Shown here: piece by piece, positions 25,001 to 32,640 of the stretch
How positions within the stretch are numbered: position 1 is the stretch's first letter
How the letters are laid out: each line of letters begins with the position of its first letter
Origin: Verrucomicrobiaceae bacterium
GTDB taxonomy: Bacteria; Pseudomonadota; Gammaproteobacteria; Pseudomonadales; CAMLJR01
Direction of reading: 5' to 3'
DNA: 32,685 nucleotides
Assembly: GCA_028293825.1 (NCBI GenBank)
Contig: JAQGNY010000051.1
Location: 1-32,685 of the forward strand
Translations under genes and position numbers: made by a program
The notes under the pieces: generated by a model
Seen by the model: the letters and a program-made list of their open reading frames with translations, nothing else
Database searches by the model: none
Told to the model about the DNA's origin: nothing

Positions 25001-25076
25001 GCCCAGATAGCTCAGTCGGTAGAGCAGAGGATTGAAAATCCTCGTGTCGGCGGTTCGATTCCGTCTCTGGGCACCA
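25001..25076 (+). tRNA. tRNA-Phe (anticodon GAA)
   Basis: 76-nt cloverleaf with acceptor arms GCCCAGA and TCTGGGC, discriminator A and an encoded CCA end. The anticodon arm reads GAGGATTGAAAATCCTC with GAA at 25034-25036, and the T loop is GGTTCGATTCC. It is the integration target of the island: its 3' end is intact and an integrase starts 162 nt downstream. Confidence 0.97.
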
Positions 25077-25211: not shown

Positions 25212-25237
25212 TGAGTTTGGAACGGAAACCGTACCCC

Positions 25238-26452
25238 ATGGCGCTCACCGATACCGCCGTCAGACAAGCGAAGCCCAAGGAAAAGCCGTACAAGCTGAGT
25301 GACAGCCAAGGGTTATATCTGGATGTCCGTCCGGGTGGCTCGAAGCTATGGCGATTGAAGTACCGGATCGCAGGGAAAGAGAAGCTCTACGCAATCGGGT
25401 CATACCCCGAGATTAGTCTCAGTGACGCGCGCATCGAACGCGACAAGGCGCGCAAGCTGATTGCCATCGGCACCGACCCCGTTCATGACCGCAAGGAGCA
25501 GGGGCGTGCGCGAGCCCTAGCTGATGGCAACACATTTGATGGCCTGGCGACTGAATGGCTCGCTTACAACTCGCCGCGCTGGGCCAAGTCGACTGCGTAC
25601 AAAGCCAATCTCTATTTGAAAAACGCACTAATTCCAGTGCTCGGCACCAGGCCGGTCGCGAAGATCACCCGTCCCGAGTTAGTGGATTTCATTCGTAGTA
25701 TCGAAAAGCGCGAAACCTTCGACGTGGCGAAGAAGTGCCGGCAATGGCTCAACCAGATATTTCGCTACGCCTTGGCAAAGGGATTGATTCAATACAACCC
25801 CGCGACGGATCTCGACATCGTGGCCGCTGCCGGGCCGAGGGTACGGCATCATCCATTCGTACCCCCAGCCGAGCTGCCCGCGTTATTGGACGCCGTGGCC
25901 AACTACAAGGGCAACTTCCTTACCAAATGCGCTGTGCGGCTGCTAATGCTCACCGCGGTGCGCCCCGGTGAACTGCGTGCGGCGCCGTGGAGTGAGTTCG
26001 ATCTCGATAACGCGCTGTGGACCATTCCGGCCGACCGCATGAAGATGCGCCGCGCACACGTGGTCCCGCTCCCCAAACAGGCGGTGGCCATCCTGCGTGA
26101 TCTGGAATTGCTTACCGGTCGTTTCGATTTAGTGTTCGCCGGCCGCAACGATCCCAAGCGCCCCATGAGTGAAAACACGATTAATAAATGCCTAGGTGAC
26201 CTCGGTTACAAAGGTCGGCAAACGGGGCACGGCTTTCGTCACATGCTCAGTACAGAATTGAACGGCAAGGGTTACAACAAAGATTGGATCGAGCGGCAGC
26301 TAGCACATGGCGATAACGACGAAATCAGAGCCACATACAACCATGCGCAATACATCGATCAGCGTCGCGACATGATGCAATGGTGGGCCGATCGATTGGA
26401 GCAACTGGAAACGAGCAGTAACGTCATTCCTGTGGATTTTCAGCGGGGGTGA
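25238..26452 (+). CDS. P4-type tyrosine recombinase (site-specific integrase)
   Basis: Integrase of 404 aa that would insert and excise the island at tRNA-Phe. The N-terminal DUF4102-type arm-binding domain (MALTDTAVRQAKPKEKPYKLSDSQGLYLDV...GSKLWRLKYR) is followed by a core-binding domain and a catalytic domain with R242 (TAVRPGELR), H331-x-x-R334 (HGFRH), H357 and nucleophile Y367 (RATYNHAQY). All catalytic residues are intact, so the element may still move. ATG 25238 is chosen over TTG 25217, as members begin MALTD. Confidence 0.95.
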   Translation: MALTDTAVRQAKPKEKPYKLSDSQGLYLDVRPGGSKLWRLKYRIAGKEKLYAIGSYPEISLSDARIERDKARKLIAIGTDPVHDRKEQGRARALADGNTFDGLATEWLAYNSPRWAKSTAYKANLYLKNALIPVLGTRPVAKITRPELVDFIRSIEKRETFDVAKKCRQWLNQIFRYALAKGLIQYNPATDLDIVAAAGPRVRHHPFVPPAELPALLDAVANYKGNFLTKCAVRLLMLTAVRPGELRAAPWSEFDLDNALWTIPADRMKMRRAHVVPLPKQAVAILRDLELLTGRFDLVFAGRNDPKRPMSENTINKCLGDLGYKGRQTGHGFRHMLSTELNGKGYNKDWIERQLAHGDNDEIRATYNHAQYIDQRRDMMQWWADRLEQLETSSNVIPVDFQRG

Positions 26453-26911: not shown

Positions 26912-26984
26912 AAAAACGGCGGAAGTGAATGCGCCAACATTCACCCCGCCTTACCACAAACCACCTGTCGAAGAGGTGAATATC

Positions 26985-27938
26985 ATGGCTACAGAAAAGG
27001 GTATCACGAACAAACTACAGCATGAGGTCGGGGACTGGTTTGAAACTTGGACTGGTACTGCTGATGGTCTAATTGCTGCCGGCGTTCTGGAGCGCGCTTT
27101 GCTACCAGGAGAGCCCGGTAATAACAAAGCCAGTGCAACCTATTACAAAGGGGTGCTCGTAAAAAGGGGCTCGAATCACCCCTACGATCAGGATTACCTG
27201 AGCATAGTTCGCAGGGGAAATAAATTTGAGGTCAAAAAGGGAAAGGCTCGCGAGTCATATGATGTGAGCACGAGGATGAGGGAAGAGATCGGTAGCATGT
27301 ACGAAACGCGTCACGGGACCAAAGAGCAGCTTCAAGCCTGCGGTATTGGTTGGGGAAAACTATATCCCGGAGAGCTGGGGGCCAACAAACAAAGATTGAC
27401 CACGATTGATGCTCGGGGATATGAAGTTGAGATTACACGAAATCAAAATCATTGGGAGCCGCCGTACAGTACATGTACTTTTCTTCCTCAATCGGTACGA
27501 TCGAAACGAGCACACACTGTAAATTTGAATGCGGTAGAAAACTATCTGATCCACATTTTTAGACAGCTTCCGAAAAAATTTATAGATAAAGCAATTATCG
27601 ATGCGATGGGTTTAGAAATCGATTTTGGGAAACAATGGGAAGCAACGCCGCCAGCTTTTAATGTAGGCCAAACGGTTGCGGTATCAAGTTTTTCCACTAA
27701 GGGTTTAGGGGAAGTAACTAAGATTGAATGGCACATCGGAGATAACCGCCGCACAGGTTGGATTTATTTCGTAGACATGAAGGGGTCGACCCCCCCCACG
27801 CAATCCTATTACGAAAACTGTCTTTCCGATCCACCTCTAGCCTCGGTGTCGTTTTTACCCGGTGCGGCATCTGGGCCGGTCAAGCAGCGCGGACGCGGAC
27901 GCTTACCTACCCATGTACCGCAGATTGGGAGGGCTTGA
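26985..27938 (+). CDS. Island protein of unknown function with an internal tandem duplication
   Basis: 317-aa protein, not recognised. ATG 26985 is chosen because GAAGAGGTG is a strong ribosome site 6 nt upstream; a GTG at 26925 would add 20 residues. Residues 14-48 (EVGDWFETWTGTADGLIAAG... PGEPGNNK) and 101-135 (EIGSMYETRHGTKEQLQACG... PGELGANK) are the same module, period 87 residues, with shared E-[VI]-G, [FY]-E-T, G-T, L-x-A and P-G-E-x-G-x-N-K. After about residue 225 a small beta-rich domain (FNVGQTVAVSSFSTKGLGEVTKIEW) resembles SH3/KOW-type folds. It begins the AT-richer part of the island. Confidence 0.75.
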   Translation: MATEKGITNKLQHEVGDWFETWTGTADGLIAAGVLERALLPGEPGNNKASATYYKGVLVKRGSNHPYDQDYLSIVRRGNKFEVKKGKARESYDVSTRMREEIGSMYETRHGTKEQLQACGIGWGKLYPGELGANKQRLTTIDARGYEVEITRNQNHWEPPYSTCTFLPQSVRSKRAHTVNLNAVENYLIHIFRQLPKKFIDKAIIDAMGLEIDFGKQWEATPPAFNVGQTVAVSSFSTKGLGEVTKIEWHIGDNRRTGWIYFVDMKGSTPPTQSYYENCLSDPPLASVSFLPGAASGPVKQRGRGRLPTHVPQIGRA

Positions 27939-28215: not shown

Positions 28216-28310
28216 AAATTTGCAGCGTGTATCCCGACGGGGAGAAAAGCCGGCACCCTTCCGGCCTGGCGCTGCGATCTAATTTAAGGGGCGCGCAAGA
28301 GTGTGTGGCC

Positions 28311-29030
28311 ATGAGTAAGCTTTTAAAGTTCAAAGCGTGTGTGGATTTAGAGGAGGCATCCCGACGAATATCTGACCTAATTGGCGAGCAGATTACTGTC
28401 GATGAGATTATATATTTTGCCGCAAATGGACATGTTCGACTTTCAGTTTATGCGGATGGGTTGGCTGGCTTTATCTACAAACACAAGCTAGGTACTCCGA
28501 TGCCGCATCCTTCGACTAAGGACGAGCCAGACAAATATTTCGATGGGTTCTATTATCTGAAATACCCTTCTCTAGACCTTTCATTGGATCAACCTAATAT
28601 ATTTGACGAGGGTGAGTTTTACGGAGTGGGAGATGACCATGAGCGAACCCCATTTGGCCCTATTTTGATAGGTGATGACGGGTTGGCGTACCAATGTTAC
28701 AAGTTTAGCAATGCGAGGCGGTATGAGCGTCCTGGCTTAGATTTAAATATTAAATACACTGACTTAATTGATTTTGTGGCGAAGGTTAATGGTGAGAACT
28801 GCGTTGATTTAACTAAGTTAGAAAAGCCAATTCACGTCAGCGAGAAGCGGAGCATTTCTCAAATAATTGCAGTGCTAGCATCAATGGCCAAGCTCGATAT
28901 TTCTTCACCATATGCGGCAGATGAAGTCTTGCGAGCTGAGGCGGCGCGCGCGGGCATTGATCTGCCATCAAGCCCTGAAACTGTTGTTAAGTTTTTGAAG
29001 ATGGCGACCCAATCGAAACTGGATAAATAA
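28311..29030 (+). CDS. Conserved accessory-region protein of unknown function
   Basis: 239 aa from ATG 28311 (MSKLLKFKACVDLEEASRRISDL...). The N-terminal part looks like a small helix-turn-helix (VDLEEASRRISDLIGEQITVDEIIYFAANGHVRL) and the middle is beta-rich with Asp/Tyr. The C-terminal part, SISQIIAVLASMAKLDISSPYAADEVLRAEAARAGIDLPSSPETVVKFLKMA, follows a pattern I recall from accessory-region proteins ('LLk-I-x-x-M-A...i...l..G-i-d-i...TV-x-k-y-L-k-x-A'). Function unknown. An AAGAG motif lies upstream of the ATG. Confidence 0.65.
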   Translation: MSKLLKFKACVDLEEASRRISDLIGEQITVDEIIYFAANGHVRLSVYADGLAGFIYKHKLGTPMPHPSTKDEPDKYFDGFYYLKYPSLDLSLDQPNIFDEGEFYGVGDDHERTPFGPILIGDDGLAYQCYKFSNARRYERPGLDLNIKYTDLIDFVAKVNGENCVDLTKLEKPIHVSEKRSISQIIAVLASMAKLDISSPYAADEVLRAEAARAGIDLPSSPETVVKFLKMATQSKLDK

Positions 29031-29129: not shown

Positions 29130-29414
29130 ATGGCTACCAAGCAACCCTTCAATATTACGCCGCAATTAATCGGCACCACTCCCACTAACTCCCCTCAAAT
29201 AATTTCCGGCGACTGCGTTTTGCGCTTCGATGAAGTGCACCAGAAAACCGGCCTCTGCCGCGCGCATGTTCACGCACTCGCTGCACAGGGGCGATTTCCG
29301 AAACCGTTGAAACTTGTTCCAGGCGGTCGCGCCAGCGGTTGGCTGTTATCTGAAATTAACCAATGGATCACTGATCGCATTGCAGAACGCGACAGCGGTC
29401 CGCGTGCAGCGTGA
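29130..29414 (+). CDS. AlpA-family phage-type transcriptional regulator
   Basis: 94-aa winged-helix protein. After a 30-residue lead, the core VLRFDEVHQKTGLCRAHVHALAAQGRFPKPLKLVPGGRASGWLLSEINQWI is the AlpA/MerR-like helix-turn-helix found in prophages and P4-type islands, where it often activates excision or integrase genes. GAGGCAAGAG lies before the ATG. First gene of the next block (29130-30382), in which genes overlap or sit within a few nucleotides. Confidence 0.88.
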   Translation: MATKQPFNITPQLIGTTPTNSPQIISGDCVLRFDEVHQKTGLCRAHVHALAAQGRFPKPLKLVPGGRASGWLLSEINQWITDRIAERDSGPRAA

Positions 29415-29424
29415 GGGGGAAGCC

Positions 29425-29730
29425 ATGAAAACAAAAACGGCCACCCCCGAAGGAAGCAGCCGCAAACGTAGTGGCGCAAATAATAATTCTCTCGCGGCCC
29501 AGCGGCAATGCGTAATCGATGCGCTGCGCGAATCGCTAAATGGATTGACCACAATTGAGTTACGCGAAAAGTTCGATGTGATGATGCCGGCGGCGCGCGT
29601 GCATGAGCTGCGTTGGATGTTTGGCTACAACATCGAGCGAGCATGGACGCACGACACCAATGCCCAAGGCAATAAACACAGCGTCGCGCGCTACGTGCTG
29701 CTTACAGGCAAATGGCGAGGTGCGGCATGA
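29425..29730 (+). CDS. Winged helix-turn-helix protein (HTH_39 type)
   Basis: 101 aa with a strong GAGGGGGAAG site before ATG 29425, which is 10 nt after the alpA stop. The segment QRQCVIDALRESLNGLTTIELREKFDVMMPAARVHELRWMFGYNIERAWTHD...ARYVLL matches the small helix-turn-helix of phages and islands in which L-T-T-x-E-x-R-e-x-l-x-i-M-x-P-A-A-R-V-x-E-L-R is diagnostic. Likely DNA-binding. Its TGA overlaps the ATG of the next gene. Confidence 0.82.
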   Translation: MKTKTATPEGSSRKRSGANNNSLAAQRQCVIDALRESLNGLTTIELREKFDVMMPAARVHELRWMFGYNIERAWTHDTNAQGNKHSVARYVLLTGKWRGAA

Positions 29731-29893: not shown

Positions 29894-30382
29894 ATGGCCC
29901 GCAATCGTGTTCGAGTTAAGGGGCGCAGCGAAGCCGGCAGATATGCCGGCATTCCTCATGCCGTGATGTTGCACCAGGACTTTATCGCACTGCCTCCGAA
30001 TGCGATTCGCCTGCTGCTAGAAATGGCGAGACAGTATAACGGCCACAACAACGGCGACCTCTCAGCAGCATGGACACTAATGCAAAAGCGCGGCTTTAAT
30101 TCCGAACCAACGCTGAACAAAGCGCTGCATAAATTACTTCAACTAAGTTTTCTCGTGCGCACACGTGAGGGCCGCTTTATGAACCCGGGTAGGCTTTGTG
30201 CGTTGTACGCGTTGACATGGCAGGCCGTCGACGACTGCCCGGGCAAGAATCTCGAAATATTGCCAACGTCGCTACCGCTGCGTCGGTTTACCGCCGAAAT
30301 TATCAAAATGCCCACTGTAGAAACTGAAGCCATTGGCTTTAGAAACTACAGCCATAAAGGGAAAAAGCATGGTGAACCGTGA
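29894..30382 (+). CDS. Winged-helix protein, probable replication initiator of the island
   Basis: 162 aa; AAGG abuts the ATG 2 nt after the previous stop. After a basic lead (MARNRVRVKGRSEAGRYAGIPHAVM) it reads LPPNAIRLLLEMARQYNGHNNGDLSAAWTLMQKRGFNSEPTLNKALHKLLQLSFLVRTREGRF..., a winged-helix of the kind used by phage replication or repressor proteins, with the NNGDLS-x-AW-x-x-M-x-x-R-G-F/W-x-S-x-x-T motif. Similar proteins sit in many islands next to DNA repeats. Its C-terminal tail (ETEAIGFRNYSHKG) is encoded by repeats 1-2. Function as initiator is inference. Confidence 0.65.
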   Translation: MARNRVRVKGRSEAGRYAGIPHAVMLHQDFIALPPNAIRLLLEMARQYNGHNNGDLSAAWTLMQKRGFNSEPTLNKALHKLLQLSFLVRTREGRFMNPGRLCALYALTWQAVDDCPGKNLEILPTSLPLRRFTAEIIKMPTVETEAIGFRNYSHKGKKHGEP

Positions 30383-30452
30383 TGCTGTGGCTGCAGAAAC
30401 TGAAGCCATATGACGTCTTTCGTCGCTCTCATGGCTTCAGAAACTGAAGACC
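30312..30452 (+). repeat. Four spaced interrupted palindromes (iteron-like) at the 3' end of the winged-helix gene
   Basis: Units at 30312-30332, 30334-30354, 30388-30408 and 30432-30452 share arms TGGCTTCAG and CTGAAGCCA around a central AAA. Unit 1 keeps mainly the right arm, unit 2 has changes in both arms, unit 3 has one mismatch and unit 4 has an altered right end. Unit-to-unit steps are 22, 54 and 44 bp, close to 2, 5 and 4 helical turns, so all would face the same side of the helix. Units 1 and 2 are inside the coding sequence, 3 and 4 downstream. A TTTATATATTA stretch follows. Confidence 0.8.
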
Positions 30453-30902
30453 TTTATATATTACCAAGGGGGTGATGTTTTATTTGTCGGCCTGGACTGT
30501 TTGAAATAATCGCGAGGTCGCATTGGTGGTCAGTGCAGCTGGCGCTCGATCGACAAGATTTATCCGGGGTCACTACGCGAGGCCCGGTATTGATTTGTAT
30601 GGTTTCCGTCGTTTTGAGGTTTGCCGCGAGTGCATTTTGGGCAATCAGCAAACTGCTGGAAAGTAGTGAATCAAAAACAGGTAAAAATAGATTTGCAAAG
30701 CTGGAGCATCGCGCGCACGTATTGGTCGCACAGACGGCGGTTGCGGTTTAACAGTTTTACATCAACGGCAAGCGCATTACCGGTTTCGATCCATGGGGAT
30801 TTCGAAAGTTGAGTATCTTGCCTTTCTTGAGCGGAAGTCCGACCGTGATCGCGTCGCGGAATTGGAGCCGTGGCAATGACGGTAATAGCACACGCTTAGA
30901 AC

Positions 30903-31202: not shown

Positions 31203-32150
31203 TCAATTTCCGAAAAATGCCTGAATAATCCTCAGTGGCGCTGGGCGGGATTTTTGACGCTCAGCCCAGTAAATCTTGAACCCCTCTTCCAGGTGAAACT
31301 CCCAACTGCTTTCTGACATATGAGCTGTGGAGCCCATGAGACAAAACTTATCGTTCGTGATCAGCCATCTGCCAATACCGTTAACAGCTTTGGTCTTACG
31401 ATCGATGGTGAAGGTTTCGCGAGCGCACAATGTCTCGTTAGAGAAAACGATAATTGTTGGTGACCATGAATCAATTTCGTAATCTATTTGATTAACTGAG
31501 AGCAAGTTACCCGATACGGCGGCACGTGATTCGACGCAGTGCTGATCCGATTTTGTGCAGGTTATTTTTGACGTTTGCAGCGGGTAGTCCATTTTCGAAC
31601 CGCTACCTAATGAACCCTCACGCGTCCATGTCCCTTCAGCAACCACCGTGTCATCGTTAAAATCGATCACATCTCTAAAGGGTGACAACACAACCGGCGT
31701 GAATGTATCGGTATAGAAATTAAGTAGTGACAGAAGCCCAAATAAGGATGCAATTCCACTGAGCAGCATCCCTGAAAGAACAAAAGCCTTCCTTGGTCGC
31801 GACATCAATCGCCACGGTAGGACTACTGGTAATCCGATAATAAGTGCGCGACTAAGTCCTTCTATCACATAGGCCGCAATCCATGCGAAAGGCAGCGGCA
31901 GCAGCGCGATCAATAACGCATTACCGACATCGTCTTTCATAAAGACATTAATATTGCCGGTCTTTTCGCTTTCGCACTGCGATAAGTCTGGACTGCGGTC
32001 CAAATACTTGCTGTTAGCACAAGCCTTAAATGCCAGAGATGCAAAACTCTGTGCTTGGGCGAAATCCTCATTGTGCTGGTGGAATACAGCACTAATCACC
32101 CAGACAATGGAAAGAAAAATCCCAAAGCGCTGCCAGCCATTCAGTCGCAT
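31203..32150 (-). CDS. Membrane protein with a large soluble domain, unknown function
   Basis: 315 aa. The N-terminal third has about four hydrophobic segments (near 6-23, 77-99, 102-116 and 122-143), with a ~50-residue loop between the first two that contains KACANSKYLDRSPDLSQCESEKTGNINVFMKDD. I recall such N-terminal regions in short proteobacterial accessory proteins. The C-terminal 165 residues are soluble with several Cys (ITCTKSDQHC, ETLCARE, KFCLMG), probably outside the membrane. This looks like a two-part protein. AGGGCAAAT precedes the ATG. It points against the replication block. Confidence 0.75.
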   Translation of the reverse strand: MRLNGWQRFGIFLSIVWVISAVFHQHNEDFAQAQSFASLAFKACANSKYLDRSPDLSQCESEKTGNINVFMKDDVGNALLIALLPLPFAWIAAYVIEGLSRALIIGLPVVLPWRLMSRPRKAFVLSGMLLSGIASLFGLLSLLNFYTDTFTPVVLSPFRDVIDFNDDTVVAEGTWTREGSLGSGSKMDYPLQTSKITCTKSDQHCVESRAAVSGNLLSVNQIDYEIDSWSPTIIVFSNETLCARETFTIDRKTKAVNGIGRWLITNDKFCLMGSTAHMSESSWEFHLEEGFKIYWAERQKSRPAPLRIIQAFFGN

Positions 32151-32623: not shown

Positions 32624-32640
32624 GGGGGGGGGGGGGGGGG
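32624..32640 (-). repeat. Run of 17 G (17 C on the DUF4224 coding strand)
   Basis: A pure G homopolymer on the plus strand, 20 bp upstream of the DUF4224 ATG and between its probable promoter and ribosome site. Length variation by slippage is expected. It may be a phase-variable control tract or a sequencing/assembly artefact near a contig end, 45 bp from the window edge. Confidence 0.85.

Follow-up and report, generated by a model that had tools for sequence, protein, structure and literature searches.

What is an array of four interrupted palindromes doing at the 3' end of a gene for a 162-amino-acid protein? This question is raised by the window, the whole stretch of 32,685 nucleotides analyzed here, which is an entire contig of its genome. 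The palindromes lie at 30312-30332, 30334-30354, 30388-30408, and 30432-30452 (units 1 to 4), each built as 9+3+9 around AAA, with start-to-start steps of 22, 54, and 44. The stop codon of the gene (TGA, 30380-30382) places units 1 and 2 inside it and units 3 and 4 outside, as the initial annotation of this DNA had described. The array is real: in 30191-30590 there was a family of four 15-mers (at least 12 of 15 positions), whereas in 150 dinucleotide shuffles the largest family was 1 (95 shuffles) or 2 (55 shuffles). A degenerate pattern composed to fit the four window units, CTKYAGAAACTRMAG, occurred without mismatch at only these four places in the 4.34-Mb genome, and with one mismatch at 9 others. 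The same annotation had given the units shared arms around AAA, and here the right arm, CTGAAGCCA, proved sound; however, no unit is a perfect palindrome, the paired arm positions numbering 8 of 9 in units 2 and 3, 7 of 9 in unit 4, and 4 of 9 in unit 1, a weak unit which keeps its right arm with most of the symmetry gone.

Relatives of the 162-aa protein, its own genome counted, were found in 15 of 145 relative genomes, 35 of 390 order genomes, and 29 of 398 phylum genomes, a few of them being weak matches (E near 1e-4). Further relatives came from 223 of 230 genome-contig stretches, 52 viral contigs, and one plasmid; among phage records there was one at E<=1e-3, vB_Pae_U1. In the first homologues we observed interrupted palindromes of very different sequence at the same place and with similar steps, such as GGTCCACAACATGGACT with steps of 23, 54, and 35 in locus L004 and, read on the other strand, GTACATTTTCTGTAC with steps of 35, 54, and 22 in L003. 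The comparison also brought out a conserved 16-bp box, CCTTTATATATTACCA, absent from the initial annotation, which in the window occupies 30451-30466 of the + strand and overlaps unit 4 by two bases. We assembled 134 loci: 80 genome contigs, the 52 viral contigs, vB_Pae_U1, and the window; since only the best 80 of the 223 genome-contig relatives were kept, the sample is tilted to the kin of the window. When scored with a two-block matrix (8 bp, gap, 5 bp), the box exceeded the 99% shuffle level in 116 of the 134 loci, a result which is somewhat flattering because the matrix was learned from the same loci, the shuffles being scored with that matrix as well. Seven of the 18 loci below the cut were restored by eye (L056, L072, L080, L086, L115, L145, and L150), and 11 which had no box were excluded from the statistics (L035, L054, L066, L093, L096, L100, L108, L129, L147, L148, and L149; beyond the match, L100 has only 54 bp and L108 only 153 bp of sequence). 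Thinning of the 123 retained loci at 80% protein identity left the 85 on which the following results are based. Tandem O-like genes, one a strong match and the other, some 300 bp away, a weak one, were seen in Bacterioplanes (L054 / L006 and L017), with no box found.

Parts of the box were invariant. In all 116 loci its second base was C and its last three were CCA, and the first C, the next two T, and the TA of TACCA were kept in 107 to 115. In the genome of the window it occurred at one place with up to two mismatches, as compared to three places for a reversed control pattern. In 54 of 85 loci no 14-bp stretch within 300 bp was less stable than the box, and in 75 of 85 it fell in the lowest 2%, a low stability that is partly built in because the search sought an A/T-rich motif; as far as sequence can tell, this instability is what would be expected of a DNA-unwinding element, and we propose that function for the box. 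Sites resembling DnaA boxes were not in excess across the 85 loci (0.69 per 510 bp vs 0.72 in shuffles). We also considered the box as a motif of unrelated replicons and rejected this: exact 16- or 17-mers occurred in 32 viral-contig loci, and only in L214 did an O-like gene lie upstream. The other matches look like chance in A/T-rich DNA, and the box is therefore informative only in context. In five Pseudomonas elements (L032, L033, L038, L099, and L179) a short inverted repeat around GGCGCAGCC(TGG) lies directly 3' of the box as a small hairpin.

The position of the last palindrome relative to the box was fixed. Mean dyad symmetry, averaged over arm distances 2-9, peaked at 0.588 of pairs 9 bp before the box, against a mean over all offsets of 0.252 (sd 0.031; 85 loci); lesser peaks (0.34-0.40) stood at -44, -53, -98, -107, and -118, the expected places of upstream copies, and others as low as these, at -3.5 to +9.5, arose from the self-symmetry of the box. 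In the window it is unit 4 that lies at the anchored peak and abuts the box. Taking the best of five neighboring centers, the last palindrome had at least 4 of 6 arm pairs in 75 of 85 loci and at least 5 in 48 of 85 (random places, 22% and 3.6%), and its center was at -9 in 65 loci and at -10 in 17. With this palindrome as template, the 330 bp upstream contained one or more further copies in 77 of 85 loci, at least two in 65 (shuffles, 2.4%), and at least three in 47 (0.3%); the window itself scores only two because its second unit falls below the template cut. Homologous genes lacking any 3' repeat, which the initial annotation had named as the finding that would speak against it, do exist, and they are a minority: the template search found no second copy in 8 of the 85 loci, and there are the 11 of 134 dropped for having no box. 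Copies after the box showed no excess (22 of 84 loci vs 22.8% in shuffles).

The spacing of the copies followed the DNA helix. Steps were mostly 21-23 for the outer pair, then 42-44, 52-54, 63, or 73-76, and then 34-36 or 43-45; the 193 steps of the homologues gave a mean resultant length of 0.739 at 10.7 bp, compared to 0.27 or less in a jittered control. Since related loci inflate the step counts, the figure for the 22 distinct step triples (0.73 at 10.5 bp) is the fairer one. Steps at a period of 10.6-10.7 bp mean that helical phase is kept while the spacing shifts by whole turns, which bears out the near-integer helical turns noted originally in the window alone. Box and geometry persist while the palindrome sequences differ greatly between loci. 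The overlap with the gene varied: among the 37 loci with four copies, 0 lay inside the gene in 10, 1 in 5, 2 in 18, 3 in 3, and 4 in 1. In the window units 1 and 2 do lie within the gene, as first stated; the overlap is incidental, however, and the array is best described as a cis element at the gene end. The arrangement of an O-like origin, four dyad iterons with an A/T-rich tract on one side, was found here. Among 18 distant relatives (L227-L244), copy number exceeded all 20 of a locus's own shuffles only in L227, L237, L239, and L241, and did not in the other 14. One of the latter, L243, which belongs to another class, showed by eye on the reverse strand, 68-185 bp after the match end, steps of 21, 53, and 43 followed by TATAGATATACCA; shuffled sequence gave as many copies as the 4 counted there (mean 3.9, largest 5). 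As a distant relative from another class shows such similar steps together with TATAGATATACCA, the module may be old.

The protein encoded at 29894-30382 (+ strand) is predicted to be a winged-helix protein. An AlphaFold2 model made with the 85-sequence alignment had a mean pLDDT of 87.3, with helices at residues 22-26, 28-31, 35-47, 60-65, and 71-83 and strands at 87-91 and 104-107 (DSSP); confidence drops after about residue 130 of 162, leaving the tail uncertain. The helix at 71-83 (codons 30104-30142, + strand) is the predicted recognition helix. Proteins of the family are about 150 aa long (median 151.5). When the model was compared with known structures, the top rows were the plasmid RepA N-terminal domains 4pql, 4pt7, and 5kbj (Z 7.9-7.6; RepA-N rows as a whole, Z 7.9-7.3 and rmsd 6-8 A); the best VIA Z of 7.9 is in a range common without true kinship. 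Because the winged helices of eukaryotic ORC and TFIIE scored nearly as high (Z 7.3-7.7) and Foldseek gave no match at E<=0.001, the fold alone is not decisive. A profile search of solved structures placed 4pta, likewise a plasmid RepA N-terminal domain, first (E 0.0064), followed by MarR-type regulators (E 0.04-0.06); one of these four RepA structures includes bound DNA.

Profile matches of the family were mostly to phage replication proteins. With PHROGs, the window protein matched phrog_678 (O-like, E 0.0019), and the 85 members matched a DnaD-like helicase loader (30 members), the O-like phrog_678 (30) and phrog_18020 (26) (E<=0.01), and a replication-initiation family (21). The commonest weak Pfam match was MarR_2 (16 of 85 members at E<=0.1), with HTH_Crp_2 in 12, HTH_36 in 10, Phage_rep_O in 3, and RepA_N (PF06970; best member E 0.013) in 2; for the window protein itself Pfam gave nothing at E<=0.1, and primase domains were not among the Pfam matches of the family. 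Lambda O itself reached a profile score of 2.6 bits only. The initial annotation had placed the protein in a family with no assigned function, which is not quite right: besides these weak O-like, DnaD-like, and initiator matches, the record of vB_Pae_U1 labels its homologue 'replication protein O'.

Does the sequence of the palindromes follow that of the DNA-binding helix, as had been anticipated? The answer was positive, although modest and mixed across scans. Among 131 five-residue windows in 77 loci, residues 69-73, at the tip of the recognition helix, best predicted palindrome similarity with identity removed (partial r 0.136); 300 label permutations gave 0.130 or less, without correction for the choice of the best of 131, and the lead over the runners-up (0.115 at 130-134 and 0.113 at 102-106) was narrow. 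Neither single-residue scan ranked the recognition helix first. With overall distance removed, D29, R130, R3, and A103 led (t 11.2-7.3), E71 and P72 reaching 3.7 and 3.6; by mutual information the leaders were R130, R100, G99, and P35, which probably mark lineages with a longer wing. By a rule picked after inspection of the table, the third half-site position was C in 15 of 18 loci with D or E at residue 72 vs 5 of 51 without (Fisher 1.7e-8, kinship ignored); of six phylogenetically independent pairs, 3 agreed with the rule, none contradicted it, and 3 were uninformative. Proteins with SRDTL had CGTGT half-sites in 6 of 6. This co-variation lends modest support to binding of these palindromes by the protein.

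The initial annotation had left a choice between an initiator with iterons and an autoregulated repressor. We consider it quite probable that 30312-30466 serves an integrative island as its replication origin, with the 162-aa protein as initiator: phased dyads, a one-sided box in fixed contact with the last dyad, and an initiator-like gene alongside are, to judge from the DNA, the anatomy of an iteron origin. The reading as initiator with iterons is well supported by repeats which accompany the gene while their sequence changes, by the replication-protein profiles, and by an easily melted box abutting the array. The reading as repressor was not supported. If the palindromes were operators, through which the protein represses or activates its own or downstream genes with the box as a promoter element, the winged-helix fold common to MarR-like regulators, the TATA-rich box that the sites abut, and the longest ORF after the box being on the + strand in 55 of 81 loci would all be accounted for. 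However, copies upstream of the gene were near the shuffled level, with no clear excess (4 of 83 loci at 10/12, shuffled 6.3%; 1 of 83 at 11/12, shuffled 0.2%), the box in the window coincided with no promoter-like pair, the longest following ORF lay on the other strand in 26 of 81 loci, and Pfam families of the first downstream genes were common to at most 2 of 77. In our judgement, four phased sites over about 110-140 bp also exceed what an operator needs, and we regard this explanation as unlikely.

The interpretation as the origin of an island draws on the surrounding genes, whose content looks like that of an integrative island. A tyrosine integrase (25217-26452, + strand; Pfam PF00589/PF13356) adjoins tRNA-Phe (25001-25076) and is followed by three ORFs without a Pfam match, an AlpA-type regulator/excisionase (29130-29414, + strand; PF05930, E 6.4e-15), an HTH_39 winged-helix protein (29425-29730, + strand; PF14090, E 2.3e-14), a small ORF, and the 162-aa gene; relatives of the AlpA and HTH_39 proteins were found by tblastn in 21 and 10 of the 85 loci, respectively, the window included. 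On the 3' side of the palindromes there are only short ORFs (72-99 aa) and then a reverse-strand ORF at 31203-32150. The contig continues for only 2.2 kb after the proposed origin, and the window gave no capsid, portal, or terminase match by tblastn. As for the right end of the island, the 3' end of tRNA-Phe has no second copy on the contig, and on another contig there was only a place with 3 mismatches. Two island ORFs of the window, 26925-27938 (337 aa) and 28227-29030 (267 aa), are without a Pfam match; a relative of the latter precedes the O-like gene in L107, and ORFs of about 200-280 aa, mostly without a Pfam match, recur at this position in other loci. A run of 17 G at 32624-32640, near the contig end, is a possible assembly or sequencing artefact.

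In the other loci the homologue likewise kept company with genes of mobile elements. An integrase-like match lay upstream in 66 of 85 loci, and of the remaining 19, 9 have under 3 kb of upstream sequence. In L133:1-10450 an integrase, a Cox-like regulator, the O-like gene, and a head module (major head, protease, portal, large terminase, and connectors) occur within about 12 kb, a gene set fitting a capsid-forming satellite of the PICI type. Relatives of these capsid, portal, and terminase proteins were found by tblastn in 8 of 85 loci, and Pfam Phage_capsid was matched by 10 of the 108 downstream ORFs examined (271 in total). Other elements carry restriction-modification genes, or metabolic genes resembling host DNA. 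Among the families listed for the neighbors scanned (77 first downstream, 101 upstream, and 108 of 271 downstream ORFs; the first 25 families in two of the lists), no helicase, primase, or loader family occurred in more than one neighbor, and no other replication partner gene common to the loci was seen. A primase-annotated gene lies 3' of the homologue in vB_Pae_U1, and relatives of it were present in 4 of 85 loci. An element on a conjugative Cupriavidus plasmid (L224:21-10065) carries an integrase, a group II intron, an HTH gene, a toprim-domain gene, the O-like gene, a DEAD/DEAH helicase, and a capsid gene; there the toprim and helicase genes, possible primase and helicase partners, flank the homologue, and palindromic repeats of other spacing follow it, with no box found by regular expression.

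The presence of capsid and terminase genes in some elements raises the possibility that the array is a packaging site (cos or pac) or another DNA-processing site bound by a small-terminase-like protein. We think this very unlikely, in that the gene belongs to an early module near the integrase and AlpA genes, in at least 2 of 77 loci it is another gene, the first one 3' of the box, that matches terminase small-subunit families, the capsid, portal, or terminase matches are confined to those 8 of 85 loci, and the profiles point mostly to replication proteins. Phased arrays also occur in centromeres, and TubR was among the structural matches of the model; a centromere-like partition site with a TubR- or ParR-like winged-helix adaptor is nevertheless most improbable, as no partition NTPase was present among the families listed for the neighbors scanned, an integrated island needs no partition, and a melting box would be unexpected in a centromere. 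RNA hairpins or a transcription terminator at the gene end deserve hardly any credence: unit 4 with its T-containing tail does score as terminator-like, but the terminator count was 4 vs 2.9 in shuffles, no Rfam family reached gathering level, the positions keep to the turns of the DNA helix, and hairpins are disfavored because G.T made up 30 of 190 non-Watson-Crick cells (15.8%), as at random (16.7%).

With the array read as an iteron origin, we propose the following course of events. Dimers of the 162-aa protein would bind the four interrupted palindromes, presumably on one face of the helix because the steps are close to whole helical turns, and the dimer on the fourth iteron would sit directly against the box. 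The assembled complex would then melt the box and either hold the single strand or hand it over, and a host or helper-phage helicase and a primase would be loaded on that strand once the island had been excised. The fixed distance and the invariant bases suggest that the box is read and not just melted. We further suggest, tentatively and at slightly less than even odds, that these loci represent a new class of origin in islands and capsid-forming satellites of the Pseudomonadota, which would need no more than one protein of about 150 aa and some 150 bp of DNA in cis. In such a class the code between initiator and iterons would drift freely, making the elements mutually compatible, while a universal opening box, CCTTTATA-N3-6-TACCA, would stay fixed at the last iteron and be read sequence-specifically as a single strand, either by parts of the initiator that are conserved or by a host factor taking the place of both DnaA and a dedicated loader.

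Gram-negative bacteria carry small islands and satellites which are believed to multiply once excised, and to our knowledge few of their origins have been located so far. The box together with phased dyads offers a simple sequence signature for finding such origins. The 77 loci with at least two iterons beside the protein form a natural collection that might reveal a winged-helix recognition code, and the arrangement raises the questions of how so small a protein (about 150 aa), with no evident recruiting domain, could open DNA and load a helicase, and of what reads the invariant CCA of TACCA. If functional across hosts, the module might also be of use as a small vector replicon.

Iteron origins, O-like and RepA_N-like initiators, and phage-satellite origins are already known; one-protein replicons of about 150 aa with a common opening box and diverging iterons were not found among the titles and abstract openings listed from the open-licence literature searched. 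The phage lambda origin (NC_001416) resembles the present one in having four inverted-repeat iterons with an A-rich center, a one-sided A/T-rich tract, and an overlap with the initiator gene; unlike those described here, its iterons are nearly contiguous (steps of 20, 24, and 23) and lie in mid-gene. Lambda uses P for helicase loading, whereas no P-like neighbor was seen among the families listed here. Lambdoid phages in general are described as having an inverted repeat as the iteron and an A/T-rich region flanking the iterons (PMC7466680).

In predicted structure the RepA_N initiators gave the top rows, not well separated from other winged helices. RepA of the Vibrio cholerae satellite PLE binds a semi-palindromic repeat necessary for PLE replication, according to the cited account (PMC7145576). 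The likeness to PLE RepA and the RepA_N initiators of pSK41 and pTZ2162 lies in the top structural rows, which are RepA N-terminal winged-helix domains, and in the semi-palindromic iterons around an A tract described for them, PLE also being a mobile satellite (PMC7145576; PMC5703833). The pSK41 origin is reported to lie inside rep, which may be compared with the partial gene overlap seen here (PMC7145576; PMC5703833). Unlike RepA_N initiators, the present protein is about 150 aa long and ends soon after the winged helix, and helically phased steps with one conserved box abutting the last iteron set the arrays apart from RepA_N systems; the RepA_N Pfam profile, moreover, was unmatched by the window protein and reached only the 2 of 85 members noted above.

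Among mobile elements, the Gram-negative PICI EcCICFT073 is similar in being a phage satellite whose origin, with iterons and an A/T-rich melting site, is placed immediately 3' of the replication gene (PMC6092414). It differs in that two iteron sets are described as flanking the A/T-rich region, which here has iterons on one side only, and its replication genes are given as pri and rep, sometimes fused, whereas no primase domain was matched here (PMC6092414). Two other comparisons were set aside, the Pseudomonas satellite AH14b, with its P4-like primase (PMC4936722), and the PICMIs, for which use of a primase is reported (PMC10803314). SGI1, like the present element, is an integrative island, and is described as replicating transiently from iterons downstream of rep; those iterons are given as four GC-rich 17-bp direct repeats with a putative DnaA box and a RepA_C protein, in contrast to the dyads found here (PMC7433901). 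RepA_C of the SGI1 type was not matched by any of the 85 members among the first 25 of 26 Pfam families listed. In mechanism, a parallel is TrfA of RK2, a winged-helix initiator described as binding iterons and, sequence-specifically, one strand of the DNA-unwinding element, which is the kind of reading we propose for the box (PMC4081077). The plasmid Rep proteins there are given two winged-helix domains, and the unwinding element is composed of four 13-mers (PMC4081077).
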